Source: Methanogenium organophilum
GTDB lineage: Archaea; Halobacteriota; Methanomicrobia; Methanomicrobiales; Methanomicrobiaceae
Reading direction: 5' to 3'
Assembly: GCF_026684035.1 (NCBI RefSeq)
Contig: NZ_CP113361.1
Coordinates: forward strand, 248,001 to 312,000
DNA: 64,000 nucleotides
Positions 14,495-23,970 of the stretch are shown piece after piece. The position numbers and the translations under genes are program-made. Under the pieces are notes generated by a model that did not search any database, had not been told where the DNA came from, and saw only the letters and a list, made by a program, of their open reading frames with translations. Every line of letters starts with the position of its first letter. Positions within the stretch are counted from its first letter, which is position 1.

Positions 14495-14508
14495 CCCACC
14501 GACAGCAT
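14495..14508 (+). repeat. Direct repeat of the tRNA-Met 3' end (attachment-site-like)
   Basis: CCCACCGACAGCAT matches CCCATCGACAGCAT at 6398-6411 (T-arm end, acceptor strand and discriminator of tRNA-Met) with one mismatch and in the same orientation. A tRNA-tail repeat is what site-specific integration leaves behind. No integrase gene is seen between the two copies, so this would be an old, degraded event. Confidence 0.4.
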
Positions 14509-14538
14509 GATTTTACGAAATTACTTAATTTATTTGCT

Positions 14539-14832
14539 TTAAATTCTACATACAAATTTTATCATAGCATTGTCATTAGGATTATACTGAGGATGAGTGC
14601 TAAAAGTTGTATCTAAAACTTGAACATTTCTAATTTCATTGAGTAAATATAATTTCCATGCTGGTAGATTTCCCGATTTACTATATCCCCCAACTTGAAA
14701 TGCTCTCAGAGCCTTGTTCCCTTTTTCATTTATTCCTATAAGATGTGGATTTATTTTTCTAATTTGCCCATCATACAAGATATTTACTTGTTTTTTACTT
14801 TTAATTGCATTACATAATTTAGGTTCACTCAT
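14539..14832 (-). CDS. Small WYL-like domain protein
   Basis: Protein of 97 residues, AT-rich coding. It has the pattern of a lone WYL-type beta domain: an N-terminal helix (LCNAIKSKKQ), VNILYDGQIRKINPHLIG, ALRAFQVGGYSKSG, then AWKLYLLNEIRNVQVLDTTF. WYL domains bind nucleotide or nucleic-acid ligands and commonly regulate prokaryotic immune systems. It lies 115 nt downstream of the large ATPase on the same strand with the same low GC, so both probably arrived together and form one unit. No HTH is present. Confidence 0.6.
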   Translation of the reverse strand: MSEPKLCNAIKSKKQVNILYDGQIRKINPHLIGINEKGNKALRAFQVGGYSKSGNLPAWKLYLLNEIRNVQVLDTTFSTHPQYNPNDNAMIKFVCRI

Positions 14833-14947
14833 TCAAATCAAACCTGGACTTTTTAGTTCATTGAAAAATTGAAATAAACTTACTTAAAATTATCCTAAGA
14901 AAATTGATAGAAATATTTCTAAATTATGATTCATATTTGAATATAAT

Positions 14948-17140
14948 TCATTGATCTAAATGTGATACATCCCTGTATAATTTGCATAAATGATCTCCAG
15001 AAAGATCAATCAATGGTTCATACATGAATGAATTTAAATGAATATTTTCAGGTGTCATAAGGTTTACTCTATCTAATATATTTATTGTATTTCTTTCAGA
15101 AGGGAACTCTTTTTTATATTTTCCAACCATAGTTCCAGTAGTCCATTTCTGAATTTTTGTATCAATATCAGTAATCACAGGTTTCATTTTATTATACATA
15201 TAATATTCAGCTTCAAGCCTAATGCCTATTGACAAAACGATCTTCTCCTCCAAATTATTGCAATTTGAAGCGAGACATTTATTTGAACATGATTTAATTG
15301 TATCAAATATCCTATTTGTGGGATTTACAATTTTTATTCCCGCGTTTGGTAGTTCATGTGCCAAAATGAATTCAAGATCCTTATTTGTCAAAAGAAGTGT
15401 ATCATTTTTTAAATGAAGCATTGAAGTCAGTGATAGATAGTTTTGTTCATCTGTCCCCTTAGTATATTCAATTACATTTCTGATAAAAGGAATAAGAGCA
15501 ATAACATAATTTTCATTCTTCGAAGCATTTTTAATCCATTCTCGTAATGGCATTTTAACAAATGATGCTTTTTGAAGTTTTATTCCAGAATCATTTTTTT
15601 CTGCAATGTAACAGTTATCGTCAGGAATAAATCTAGAATTTAATGTTCTAAAAAAATCAAAATTATGTGTTAAAATAATTTGATAAAAAAAATCGTCTTT
15701 TGAAATATCAATCATATATTCAACAATTGCATATTTATTCATATAATCAAATGAATCAGCAATATCATCAAAAATAAATATAGTCTCTTGATTGTTTTTC
15801 CTTCTTACTTCAATTTCATAAATTATATCTAATAGATATAATGCCTTTTTTTCACCCTGACTAAGAACCTTCATAGCATTCTCTCTATCAGCAATATATT
15901 CCTCATTCGAGTCTTTAAACTCAAATTTTATAGTCGGAGTGTCACTTCCTAAAATTACATCTTCTTTATTTTCAATTTTTACGATAAATGGAACTTTAAA
16001 TCTACTATTAAATTTATCCTTTACCTCTTCCCATAAAGTAAATTCTTTCTTAGCTTCTTCAATTATCCCTTTAATTTCATCTTTACCAGATCTATAAAGA
16101 AAAATTAATTCATTATATCTATCCTCTTCTATTTTTATGTAATTTAACCAAAATTTCTTTTTCAATCCATCTATATCAACCAAATCCGGAATAATAAATT
16201 TATTTTTTTCAAGAAATGTCCTAAATTTCTTTAAATTCTCTTTAGCTGTAATTGCATTATCAATTTTTTCAAATTTTTCAATAAGAGATTCATCACCAAA
16301 TATCCTTTTTTTCTCAGTATCAATTATATTTAAAAAATTTTCATCCGAATTTACTATTTGAGTGCCTTTTTCTGATTCTAATAACACTTTATGATTGGCT
16401 TTATAGAAACCACTATTTTTTAAATATTTAGAGACATCAGATGCATTATTATGAGTAAAGATATCTTTTACAAAATAATCAGCTTCTTCAAGCAATTCAT
16501 CAAATCTTTCAATATACTCTTCTAATAATTTTTTATTATCTTCATCAAGCAAAAATTTCTCAACATCTGGATTGAATATATCTTTATACTTAATTTTAGA
16601 AATATCTGAAATTTTTAAATTTTTTATTTCGGAATGCATATTTTCTAAACATACATATAAATCTTGTTCCTTGAAATCATTTAAAATAAAATTTTCATTA
16701 GCAATATTATCCCTAATTTTTGATGATTTCTTTATCTCACGAATGAATTCATCTTTCTTCTCATTAAGGTCTTTGTGAATTTTTTCATAACGTTCTTTGA
16801 GACTTTTTGTCGCAAGTAACAAAGAAACTTTATCCGACTCAAATGATTCTAAAAAAGGGTGAATTACATAAATTTGATCATTTACTAAAGGATTTCCATT
16901 TTCATCATTAATTTCACGAATTGTTTTTCTAGATGGATATCGTAGATCTTTAGAATCACCTGAATTTTGATAATCAGTAAAAGTTTTTGCAAAGGATGAT
17001 TTCATAGCCCCATTTGAAGCATAAATTCCAAACACTGATTTTTTCTTAATAGAACTGTTTTGTTCAAAACAGAACTCAAAATCAAACTGCTTTATCCCAT
17101 AACAATTTTCTAAATTAATCGAAACCCTTTTTTGCATCAA
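14948..17140 (-). CDS. RloC/AAA_13-like ATPase, putative defence protein
   Basis: Protein of 730 residues. The P-loop near the N-terminus reads GIYASNGAMKSS (residues 38-49, Lys47), with Met replacing the second Gly of GAGKS. A long charged, coiled-coil middle (about 110-400) separates it from an ABC-type signature VLSQGEKKA (L426-E430) and Walker B IFIFDDIADSFDY (D458, D459). This SMC/Rad50-like split-ATPase layout is that of AAA_13 proteins such as RloC and PrrC-associated ATPases, which sense phage or DNA damage. No nuclease motif was recognised in the last 250 residues. The gene is strikingly AT-rich against its neighbours, a sign of recent transfer. Confidence 0.75.
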   Translation of the reverse strand: MMQKRVSINLENCYGIKQFDFEFCFEQNSSIKKKSVFGIYASNGAMKSSFAKTFTDYQNSGDSKDLRYPSRKTIREINDENGNPLVNDQIYVIHPFLESFESDKVSLLLATKSLKERYEKIHKDLNEKKDEFIREIKKSSKIRDNIANENFILNDFKEQDLYVCLENMHSEIKNLKISDISKIKYKDIFNPDVEKFLLDEDNKKLLEEYIERFDELLEEADYFVKDIFTHNNASDVSKYLKNSGFYKANHKVLLESEKGTQIVNSDENFLNIIDTEKKRIFGDESLIEKFEKIDNAITAKENLKKFRTFLEKNKFIIPDLVDIDGLKKKFWLNYIKIEEDRYNELIFLYRSGKDEIKGIIEEAKKEFTLWEEVKDKFNSRFKVPFIVKIENKEDVILGSDTPTIKFEFKDSNEEYIADRENAMKVLSQGEKKALYLLDIIYEIEVRRKNNQETIFIFDDIADSFDYMNKYAIVEYMIDISKDDFFYQIILTHNFDFFRTLNSRFIPDDNCYIAEKNDSGIKLQKASFVKMPLREWIKNASKNENYVIALIPFIRNVIEYTKGTDEQNYLSLTSMLHLKNDTLLLTNKDLEFILAHELPNAGIKIVNPTNRIFDTIKSCSNKCLASNCNNLEEKIVLSIGIRLEAEYYMYNKMKPVITDIDTKIQKWTTGTMVGKYKKEFPSERNTINILDRVNLMTPENIHLNSFMYEPLIDLSGDHLCKLYRDVSHLDQ

Positions 17141-17453
17141 TGGGTTTTATAAAAATAAGCTTTGATAAATCTTCTGATTTTTATTTGAACATTTGATTTA
17201 CATATTAATGAGATTAAATAACTTTACTCAAAAATATTCTCTCCCAATCTCTTCAAGTTGATTAATTTTCAATACAAATTAGAAATTCTCAAGACGATAA
17301 AGTAAACCATAAACACTCTCCCCAACTCAAAAAACAACCGAAATACCCGGCCAAAACAGAAGCCCACCATTCTACGATCTCATGTCAATCTGATACATAA
17401 ATCAACTGAAAAAAGTGCCAATAGTAAACCGTTACATCCCTTCAATTTGGGCT
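17141..17453. other. Intergenic region upstream of the ATPase gene
   Basis: AT-rich up to about 17300, then base composition returns to that of the chromosome, marking the right edge of the transferred segment. The promoter of the minus-strand ATPase should lie around 17160-17220 (several TTAAATA-like stretches). No gene is seen. Confidence 0.45.
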
Positions 17454-17675
17454 TTAATTCGAGTAAAAAATACCATATCGCACGGAATCGTGTGGAATTC
17501 CGGTTTCCTTTTCCAAAGGACGGGTAACATCGTGAAAAAGAGCGGCAGGAATGAGGACCTGCATATCTACACCTTCTGCTTTTCCGATCTCTACGCAAAG
17601 GCTGGTGACACGGAGTGTGTGATCAAAACCATGTGATCCTGACTGTCTGAAGAAGGTATTAGCAACGACCAGCAT
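17454..17675 (-). pseudogene. Truncated HD-domain hydrolase
   Basis: 73 residues matching the start of an HD phosphohydrolase: RQSGSHGFDHTLRVTSLCVE, then LIPAALFHDVTRPLEKETG with the HD pair. Full members run about 200 residues and continue with a CHAEIGA-like motif; here the frame ends after GIPHDSVRYGIFYSN. It is probably a deletion remnant beside the AT-rich island. No remaining C-terminal part was found in 17380-17453. Confidence 0.6.
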
Positions 17676-21294: not shown

Positions 21295-21360
21295 GTGAGT
21301 GATTAGTCAATCATAACACATATATGTAGGAAGCGACATATAAGATTGACTAGTCAGTCA
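21295..21360. promoter_or_regulatory. Hydrolase promoter with two flanking TetR-type operators, cassette 2
   Basis: Operators GTGAGTGATTAGTCAATCAT (21295-21314) and ATTGACTAGTCAGTCA (21345-21360) flank TATA-like ACATATATG and ACATATAAG elements. Their centres are about 48 bp apart, as in cassette 1. Conservation of both sites despite loss of the local TetR gene argues that they are still used. Confidence 0.72.
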
Positions 21361-21402
21361 CCAAACATGATATTAAAATACGTCTCATGTATTGGAGGAA
21401 AA

Positions 21403-22386
21403 ATGTCAGAAATTACCGAAAACAAAAGAGAAGCCAGCGAAAAAACCTTTGAACTCAGTAAAAAGGTAACGGTAGAAAGCGTATCCTACAAGAACAAATA
21501 CGGAATTACCGTTGCAGCGGATATGTACCTGTCAAAGGATATTGACACGTCGAAGCAGTATCCGGCACTTATTATCGGAACACCATATGGTGGGGTAAAA
21601 GAGCAGGGCGCCGGCATTTACGCACAGAATATGGCCGAACGTGGATTCGTTGCCATTGCGTTCGACGAATCATATAACGGAGAAAGCAGTGGAGAACCTA
21701 GACAGATCTCTTCTCCGGATCTGTTCGTTGAAGACTTCAGTGCAGGAGTAGATTTCCTTGGAACAAGAGACTTTGTAGACAGAGATAAGATCGGAGCTAT
21801 CGGCATCTGTGGAAGCGGAGCGTTTTCAATCACTGCAGCACAGGTTGACCCGCGTATCAAAGCAGTAGCAACTGCAAGCATGTATGATATGAGCAGGATG
21901 CTACGAAAGGGATGGGAAGACACGATGACTGATGAACAGCGTGCCCAGGCGTTGGTTCAGCTTGGCGAGCAGAGATGGAAAGACTTTGAAAATGGCAGTC
22001 CATTACTGCCTGACGGATTCCCCGGTGAACCGGCTGACTCAATTCCGGAAGGATTAGACCCGATTACCAGTGAATTCTTTGAATATTATGCAATGAAGCG
22101 TGGACATCATCCGAATGCAGGAGCAGCATTCACTGTGACAAGCACTATGTCATTTATGAATTTCCCGTTGATGAACTATATTGAGACAATTTCACCACGG
22201 CCAATCCTGTTCATCATCGGTGAGAACGCTCACTCCAGGTATTTCAGTGAAGATGCCTATGAGATGGCTGCTGAGCCAAAAGAACTGGTAATCATTCCGG
22301 GAGCACGACACATTGATCTATACGACAGAACTGACATGATTCCGTTTGACAAACTCGAGTCGTTCTTTTCAAAAAATCTGGGGTGA
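21403..22386 (+). CDS. Alpha/beta hydrolase with Cys nucleophile elbow, cassette 2
   Basis: Protein of 327 residues, close copy of the hydrolase at 9008. It keeps IGICGSGAF with Cys as the likely nucleophile and GARHIDLYD with the His. The C-terminal loop is changed: the GGDNNY stretch is replaced by RTDM. ATG 21403 with GGAGG a few bases upstream is the start. The stop codon abuts the ATG of the lipoprotein fusion gene at 22387, so both are expressed together. Likely role: cytoplasmic hydrolysis of the same compound class as its exported paralogue. Confidence 0.86.
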   Translation: MSEITENKREASEKTFELSKKVTVESVSYKNKYGITVAADMYLSKDIDTSKQYPALIIGTPYGGVKEQGAGIYAQNMAERGFVAIAFDESYNGESSGEPRQISSPDLFVEDFSAGVDFLGTRDFVDRDKIGAIGICGSGAFSITAAQVDPRIKAVATASMYDMSRMLRKGWEDTMTDEQRAQALVQLGEQRWKDFENGSPLLPDGFPGEPADSIPEGLDPITSEFFEYYAMKRGHHPNAGAAFTVTSTMSFMNFPLMNYIETISPRPILFIIGENAHSRYFSEDAYEMAAEPKELVIIPGARHIDLYDRTDMIPFDKLESFFSKNLG

Positions 22387-23970
22387 ATGATGAGAATTAA
22401 TACCTCTAAATTATTACCCGTTTTTGGTCTGATATTAGGCCTGCTCTTACTTACAACATCAATTGCCGGATGTACTAGTCCGGTGCAAAATGAAACTGAA
22501 CCAATAGGTGTAGATACTGCGTCCGTAAAATCTGATGAAAATACTGTCGAAGCAAAAACCGAACCCGTTTTTGAGAAAGGGATGTTAGCAGAAGGTCCTT
22601 TGGGCCAGATGTTCCAGGGAGATGTCTGGGTAAAGATGCTCGGCTCAGGTGACGGATATAATTCCTATGACGTGATATTCTCAGAAGGAGCCAGAACGCA
22701 CTGGCATTCGCATACAGAGATACAGCTGCTGTACATTCTTAGTGGAGAAGGCTGGTATCAGGAAGAAGGAAAGCCCGCACAACTCTTAAGAGTTGGAGAT
22801 TCTGTGGAGATCCCTGCAAACGTTACGCACTGGCATGGAGCAACTGCTGATAGTTCTTTTGAACATCTGGGAGTTACTATGAATCCCGAATCAGAACAGA
22901 CTGAACGGTTTGATCCTGTAAGCGATGAAGAATACGCTAATCTTGCCGCAAATGCACAGGAAAATGTCTATCCAAGTCCGGAAATAGTAATGCCTGATCC
23001 TGGTTATGTGGATCCTGAAACTCTCACCTTCGAGCTCAGTGATGATGTCACTGTCCAAAAAGTGACCTACAAAAACAGATTTGGCATAGAGCTTGCAGGC
23101 CATCTGTATTATGCAAAAGATCTGGATCTGTCTGAGAAGCACCCGGCAATCGTTATAGGACCTCCATATGGCGGAGTAAAAGAACAGGGGCCGGGAATCT
23201 ACGCACAGGATATGGCCAGAAGAGGATTTGTTGCTTTAGCGTTTGATCCTTCATACAACGGAGAGAGCGGAGGAGAACCCAGACACACCGCATCTCCGGA
23301 GATATTTGTCGAAGACTTCAGTGCCGGAGTAGATTTCCTTGGAACACGGGACTTTGTAGACAGGGAAAAAATCGGAGCTATCGGCATCTGTGGAAGTGGA
23401 GGATTCGCCATTACTGCAACAGAAGTCGATCCGAGAATCAAGGCAGTAGCAACTGCAAGCATGTATGATATAAGCAGCATGACAAGGGACGGATTCGGCT
23501 ACACCATGACCGACGAACAGCGTGCTGCAACCCTTGAGAGTGTAGCAGAAGGAAGATACGAGACCTTTGAGAGCGGATACGCACGTCAGCCCGAGACTCC
23601 AAGAGCACCGGCAGATTCTGTTCCGGAAGGCCTTAACCCTGTAATGAGTGAGTTCTTCGAGTATTACAGTATGGAGAGGGGATTCCATCCGAATGCATTG
23701 CCCGGCTTTACCGCATCCAGCACTATGGGATTCATGAACTTCCCAATGATGAATTACATCGACACCATATCACCACGTCCGATACTGTTCATCATGGGAG
23801 AGAATGCACACTCCAGGTACTACACCGAGGAAGCTTACGAGAAGGCTGCTGAGCCAAAAGAACTGGTAATTGTTCCGGGAGCACGGCATATTGATCTGTA
23901 CGACGGCGGAGACAACAATTATATCCCCTTCGATAAGCTGGAAGAATTTTTTAACCAATATTTGGAATAA
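22387..23970 (+). CDS. Exported lipoprotein: cupin fused to Cys-type alpha/beta hydrolase
   Basis: Protein of 527 residues in three parts. A signal segment (LLPVFGLILGLLLLTTSIAGC) ends in a lipobox Cys, placing the protein outside the membrane. Residues about 55-185 form a cupin with THWHSHTEIQLLYILSGEGW and HWHGA metal motifs. Residues about 205-527 form an alpha/beta hydrolase with GICGSGGF (Cys335) and GARHIDLYDGG. Each half matches the free cupin and hydrolase of the cassettes. The fusion shows that the two activities belong together. It begins directly at the stop of the cytoplasmic hydrolase gene. Function is unknown. Confidence 0.88.
   Translation: MMRINTSKLLPVFGLILGLLLLTTSIAGCTSPVQNETEPIGVDTASVKSDENTVEAKTEPVFEKGMLAEGPLGQMFQGDVWVKMLGSGDGYNSYDVIFSEGARTHWHSHTEIQLLYILSGEGWYQEEGKPAQLLRVGDSVEIPANVTHWHGATADSSFEHLGVTMNPESEQTERFDPVSDEEYANLAANAQENVYPSPEIVMPDPGYVDPETLTFELSDDVTVQKVTYKNRFGIELAGHLYYAKDLDLSEKHPAIVIGPPYGGVKEQGPGIYAQDMARRGFVALAFDPSYNGESGGEPRHTASPEIFVEDFSAGVDFLGTRDFVDREKIGAIGICGSGGFAITATEVDPRIKAVATASMYDISSMTRDGFGYTMTDEQRAATLESVAEGRYETFESGYARQPETPRAPADSVPEGLNPVMSEFFEYYSMERGFHPNALPGFTASSTMGFMNFPMMNYIDTISPRPILFIMGENAHSRYYTEEAYEKAAEPKELVIVPGARHIDLYDGGDNNYIPFDKLEEFFNQYLE

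Follow-up and report, generated by a model that had tools for sequence, protein, structure and literature searches.

What is encoded by a two-gene island that is much more AT-rich than the DNA around it, and does it belong to any known type of phage defence? The island lies in the window, that is, the whole 64,000-nt stretch of Methanogenium organophilum DNA analysed here (positions 248,001 to 312,000 of contig NZ_CP113361.1), within a genome of 2.65 Mb assembled as a single contig, in which the ATPase gene occurs once. A sequence-only reading had described an RloC-like ATPase of 730 residues followed on the same strand by a 97-residue WYL-like protein. Both ORFs were found on the minus strand in the claimed order, with the WYL gene 115 bp downstream of the ATPase gene. 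The ATPase ORF may start with TTG at 17140, which gives the 730-aa call, or with the next codon, ATG at 17137; the latter is the better reading, so the ORF stands but its length becomes 729 aa. Residue numbers count the TTG as residue 1 throughout. The features referred to below are as follows:

14495–17478, minus strand: shared cassette, approximate extent, beginning in the promoter region and ending shortly after the WYL stop codon (blastn against locus L023).
14539–14832, minus strand: WYL-type protein, 97 aa, single-domain, optional partner (family WYL-profile matches).
14833–14947, minus strand: AT-rich spacer between the ATPase and WYL genes, kept in the second archaeal copy (78% identical to L023).
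14948–17137, minus strand: SMC/ABC-type ATPase, PADLOC PDC-S46, 729 aa from the ATG at 17137.
14951–15565, minus strand: predicted all-helical C-terminal domain, residues 526–730, with a HEPN-like bundle at about 609–730 (AF2 model).
15011–15046, minus strand: motif NIHLNSFMYEPL, residues 699–710, with the proposed catalytic H701; H701, N703 and E708 invariant in 87/87 sequences.
15206–15220, minus strand: R641-x3-E645, which supplies the first two residues of the proposed catalytic set; invariant in 87/87.
15665–15865, minus strand: LSQGE (426–430), Walker B/D-loop DDIADSFDY (458–466) and linchpin H492, all invariant alignment columns.
16994–17014, minus strand: degenerate Walker A NGAMKSS, residues 43–49; M46, K47 and S49 invariant in 87/87.

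The GC content was 25.9% in the ATPase gene, 28.9% in the WYL gene and 19.1% in the spacer, whereas elsewhere in the window 2.2-kb segments averaged 47.7% (sd 3.3%, minimum 41.0%). The contrast is far beyond chance and bears out the earlier remark that both genes are much more AT-rich than their surroundings. The genes that flank the cassette are ordinary: an Fe-S aldo/keto reductase lies at one end, an MFS transporter and a MarR regulator lie at the other, and none of them matched PADLOC. Close matches to these flanking genes, which an empty-site comparison would need, were not found in congeners. Elsewhere in the window (21346–23970), translations indicate related hydrolase genes in tandem, of which the second carries an extra cupin-like part.

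The ATPase and WYL genes form a unit at a different site in another archaeon of the same family (locus L023 in genome G401). Between the window and L023 the DNA identity was 74% for the ATPase gene, 78% for the spacer and 92% for the WYL gene, and blastn aligned two blocks, 17478–17330 and 17247–14495. Since the similarity ends just past the WYL stop (about 49% identity beyond the gene) and the site is different, the two genes travel together. The cassette is horizontally acquired and co-transferred, in agreement with the proposal that its genes had been acquired together. A frameshift within a stretch of T residues interrupts the L023 ATPase gene; it may be a genuine mutation or an assembly error. 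Within L023:10370–12563 the WYL gene is intact and the ATPase gene split, and the identity of the former exceeds that of the latter. A non-coding block upstream of the ATPase gene (17330–17478) shares 71% identity with its counterpart in front of the L023 copy, which suggests a conserved control region moving with the cassette.

The ATPase is not an unnamed orphan. As judged by its profile match, it is the already-named phage-defence candidate PDC-S46 of PADLOC (PDLC05023; E=5.7e-241), with residues 4–728 aligned to positions 2–718 of the 719-position model. The label AAA_13-type did not survive, as the Pfam and NCBIfam profile search of the ATPase gave no match above the cut-off, AAA_13 included. 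No relative was found by sequence search of the PDB, and none of the papers searched mentions PDC-S46 by name. The PDC families are phage-defence candidates derived from "guilt-by-embedding", mostly without experimental validation (PMC12988326), and the PADLOC entry for this family is itself a computational candidate with no mechanism given. A scan based on two short patterns detected relatives in at least 533 stretches of species-representative genomes (about 85,000 species), a lower bound, spread over many phyla and including both bacteria and archaea. The distribution is very patchy: PDC-S46 occurred in 6/393 genomes of the phylum of M. organophilum, on 27 plasmids (32–49% identity) and in one phage record.

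An alignment of 87 sequences (A2) was the basis of the AF2 model of the whole ATPase and of all counts out of 87 given here. This model (pLDDT 90) contains a Rad50/SMC-type ABC head, residues about 1–110 and 385–525, whose nearest solved structures in VIA-align were SMC3, Rad50 and retron PtuA (Z about 15). The P-loop, described earlier as atypical, is atypical as a family trait, with the consensus NGxMK[ST]S lacking the usual GK glycine. The LSQGE signature and the DDIADSFDY Walker B reported at the same time are present and conserved in the alignment. Although its Walker A is degenerate, the protein is an SMC/Rad50-type ABC ATPase, given the conserved LSxGE, DDIADSFD and H492 and the head fold. 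This head, of Rad50/SMC/PtuA type by structure, and the full-length PADLOC match uphold the view of an SMC/ABC ATPase of defence type. The "coiled-coil middle" was roughly right: two long helices (112–140 and 339–365) are modelled there around a helical insert, which as a whole forms a short coiled coil with a helical domain at its tip. A CxxC motif was found in the insert of 0/87 sequences; PDC-S46 has therefore no zinc hook.

The C-terminal domain, modelled alone (residues 526–730, 205 residues), gave a pLDDT of 92 and a pTM of 0.89. In VIA-align its 12 best rows were HEPN or HEPN-containing chains, all weak (Z 4.3–7.1), among them 2hsb (7.1), sacsin (6.8), Csm6' (6.4) and HepT (5.4); unrelated chains followed from Z 3.3 down. 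The top rows also included 1o3u and 4nqf as well as Roquin-2 and 2q00, the last two of which we take to be HEPN-type. A Z of 4–7 for a small helical bundle can reflect a chance arrangement and each single value is weak; the HEPN-like reading was adopted because HEPN chains consistently fill the top of the list. Foldseek returned no significant match of this domain to the PDB or to viral models. The structure prediction proposed earlier as a check for a nuclease fold gave a partial answer, favourable in the VIA-align ranking and negative in Foldseek.

The statement that no nuclease motif is obvious calls for correction. Three residues of the C-terminal domain, R641, E645 and H701, are invariant in 87/87 sequences and form a nuclease-like R-x3-E-x49–57-H signature, with an E-to-H spacing of mostly 53; the histidine lies in a motif, [NST]IHxNxFMxEP, found in 86/87. 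The triad of RloC and PrrC is Arg-x3-Glu-x36–52-His, each residue of which is required in RloC (PMC2610378), and the spacing in PDC-S46 falls mostly just above that published range. The canonical HEPN motif Rx4-6H was present at H701 in 0/87 sequences. When the domain was compared with RloC by hhalign, the probability was under 1%; R641 and E645 paired with the R and E of RloC and the histidines remained unaligned. In the absence of a significant RloC alignment and of Rx4-6H, we word the putative function of the domain as working like, and not as being, the PrrC/RloC nuclease. Likewise, the lack of both the zinc hook and Rx4-6H in all 87 sequences means that PDC-S46 is not classed as RloC or as a canonical HEPN RNase. 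The domain is predicted, on the model, to be HEPN-like and a candidate for RNA cutting.

Within residues 554–716 (window 14993–15481), R554, N555, H576, K633, N703, E708 and D712 are also invariant in 87/87, and R554-N555-x2-E558 resembles a second R-x3-E helix. R554-x3-E558 with H576 was considered as the triad and rejected. The R641–E645–H701 set was preferred because E558 is conserved in only 84/87 sequences and because the other set has an E-to-H spacing (15–23, mostly 17) far from that of PrrC and RloC.

Three known systems resemble PDC-S46 in different ways. PrrC, which works with the type I restriction-modification (R-M) system EcoprrI, joins an ABC ATPase and a C-terminal R-x3-E...H nuclease in one protein, as is proposed for PDC-S46, and prrC lies between hsdS and hsdR, as several PDC-S46 genes do. 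PrrC proteins have 341–416 aa (PMC2610378) and no long insert, whereas the window copy of PDC-S46 has 729 aa and is not linked to R-M genes; moreover, the C-terminal domains have no significant sequence match. RloC (PADLOC PDC-S06, Pfam AAA_13) is closer in size and shares the ABC head with a long insert, a comparable R-x3-E...H set and the D-D Walker B, but PDC-S46 differs from it by the missing CxxC zinc hook (0/87), the degenerate Walker A and another histidine motif. In hhalign only the heads of the two align (probability 97.5%), the C-terminal domains not being alignable by profile, so "RloC-like" holds for the build of the protein and not for its identity. PtuA of Septu and of the type I retrons Ec78 and Ec83 has a similar SMC-like head (Z about 15) and acts with a separate nuclease, PtuB; PDC-S46 has no such constant partner.

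The gene neighbourhoods were sampled at 97 PDC-S46 loci, with local profiles built from the neighbour clusters. R-M genes lay no more than four genes away in 28/97 loci, and in 14/97 one was the immediate same-strand neighbour, fractions which are not unbiased since these loci are the best-scoring relatives, most similar to the window. Pfam matches among 104 same-strand neighbours within 300 bp included type III Res, N6/N4 methylases, HsdS and HsdR, and further DpnII, BsuBI, NgoBV and Eco57I enzymes and one ArdC. Two loci, L043 and L116, have the Pfam-confirmed order hsdS–PDC-S46–hsdR, the genes being −3 to 18 bp apart, two more (L040 and L041) contain this set with extra genes between, and in L042, L071, L087, L108 and L111 the gene lies in a type III operon. 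The R-M coding density was about 10–12% within 4 kb and fell to 3% at 6–8 kb, some ORFs maybe being counted under two profiles. As embedding is part of how the PDC families were found, this linkage is not independent proof. No R-M gene adjoins the window copy; elsewhere, at 1.05 Mb, the host genome encodes a type I HsdR, and it also has several N6/N4 methylases.

Other genes were also observed near members of the family. DUF2130 genes lie beside PDC-S46 in six loci (L042, L060, L068, L071, L073 and L087), RmuC genes in two (L029 and L049), and genes for KTSC-domain proteins upstream of the ATPase gene in three (L039, L063 and L069). Upstream in L089 and L092 is a gene for a 103-aa family with no Pfam match, and L047 has a gene related to it; the L089 and L092 neighbours resembled WYL proteins by eye, and they were not counted as such. 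In L056 (5013–11400), genes for type III Res, PDC-S46, WYL and, by eye, an SbcD-like nuclease form a compact cluster on one strand, with type III Mod just upstream.

The reading that we favour, at about even chances, is that the cassette is a horizontally acquired defence unit in which the SMC/ABC ATPase carries its own HEPN-like effector as a second line of defence. PrrC, the second line behind EcoprrI, and RloC, thought to act after DNA damage in like manner, were the models for this scheme. In ordinary cells, the ATPase head would keep the C-terminal HEPN-like domain inactive. If the head senses DNA ends or a DNA structure peculiar to phages, or senses that a resident R-M enzyme has been lost or inhibited, it would change state, and the HEPN-like domain would cut RNA, most likely tRNA, by means of R641, E645 and H701. 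Translation would then stop and the infected cell would be sacrificed or become dormant. The WYL protein would be an accessory, and probably a regulator that binds a ligand or nucleic acid; some members would use it, and most would do without it. The cassette would protect its host against viruses.

The assignment of the 97-aa protein as WYL-like holds for the family, as 8/10 relatives matched the PADLOC WYL profile (best 9.5e-07) and 6/10 the Pfam one (best 0.0017, at a lenient limit), whereas the window sequence alone reached only E=0.011 against PADLOC WYL. A WYL gene lies directly downstream of PDC-S46 in four loci, namely the window, L023, L056 (27 bp) and L084 (331 bp). The same gene order in all four, and the movement of the two genes as a unit, would fit a dedicated obligate two-gene system. 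Nevertheless, about 95% of the sampled PDC-S46 loci have no such gene, and in G311 an ATPase that is 51% identical has no WYL gene nearby. Moreover, genes of the same small WYL family occur beside OLD-type (AAA_15 plus TOPRIM) ATPase genes (L024:4708–10672, L159:3481–5397 and L126:956–3027), and between genes for an SbcC-like and an AAA_13 ATPase (L128); numerous further loci have such a gene with no ATPase neighbour. As an obligate pair, the two-gene system is largely refuted and very improbable. The co-occurrence of the two families recurs, but it is not fixed; the pair, earlier not recognised as a named system, consists of a named ATPase and a real but optional, shared accessory, and R-M genes are commoner neighbours of PDC-S46 than the WYL gene (28/97 loci versus four). 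In L024 the small WYL gene also adjoins a PLD/DUF3427 helicase gene, and in L163 another adjoins a DUF2130 gene. A search of viral contigs with the single WYL sequence found nothing, and the WYL genes that the family alignment brought up there were all distant and differently placed. The WYL protein WYL1 is reported to boost the HEPN-type RNase effector Cas13d of type VI-D CRISPR (PMC6547453). That combination of a WYL protein and a HEPN-type effector may serve only as an analogy and a lead; the small WYL family differs in having non-HEPN proteins, the OLD ATPases, among its neighbours too.

The remaining alternatives concern what the ATPase itself does. The HEPN-like bundle may be no RNase and may instead bind RNA or a nucleotide, or serve in assembly, with the ATPase as a DNA sensor acting via a partner, e.g., a restriction enzyme, in the manner of PtuA–PtuB. 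The absence of Rx4-6H, the resemblance of the head to PtuA of retrons Ec78 and Ec83, where the nuclease is a separate subunit, and the complete R-M systems next to many members all favour this explanation. We consider it unlikely, however: with no partner gene constant across the loci, an effector common to the whole family should be part of the protein, and the R, E and H of the bundle, which never vary, suggest catalysis. If the C-terminal domain acted on DNA as a DNase or nicking enzyme, PDC-S46 would be a single-gene DNA-degrading defence like OLD, to which an SMC/Rad50 head suited to DNA binding and the OLD partners of the WYL family would correspond. The Pfam search gave no TOPRIM, HNH or PD-(D/E)xK match, and the bundle showed none of the invariant acidic clusters that are typical of metal-dependent DNases, which leaves this explanation improbable. 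Finally, the location of many members on plasmids and the RmuC or DUF2130 repair-type neighbours of some might point to an ATPase for housekeeping or plasmid maintenance that has nothing to do with phage defence. The very patchy distribution (6/393 genomes of the phylum), the foreign composition, the embedding among R-M genes and the PADLOC listing make such a role hardly likely.

Returning to the favoured reading of an ATPase with a built-in HEPN-like effector, a mechanism that can be tested is offered for an uncharacterised defence candidate present in at least 533 places among about 85,000 species genomes, and the proposed active-site residues R641, E645 and H701 make it checkable with a few mutants. 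In a wider view, which is possible and held only tentatively, PDC-S46 would be a third separate branch of ABC-ATPase–HEPN RNases next to PrrC and RloC, marked by its degenerate P-loop and the new histidine motif NIHxNxFMxEP, widespread in bacteria, present in archaea and guarding both type I and type III restriction systems. The small WYL protein would then be an interchangeable regulator of SMC-type ATPase effectors (PDC-S46, OLD and SbcC/AAA_13); its recurrence as a partner suggests a control module shared across unrelated ATPase effectors. The principle that the loss of a restriction enzyme releases a built-in RNase has so far been known mainly from PrrC. If the proposed mechanism is true, this principle would extend to a second protein family, and also to type III systems and to archaea.
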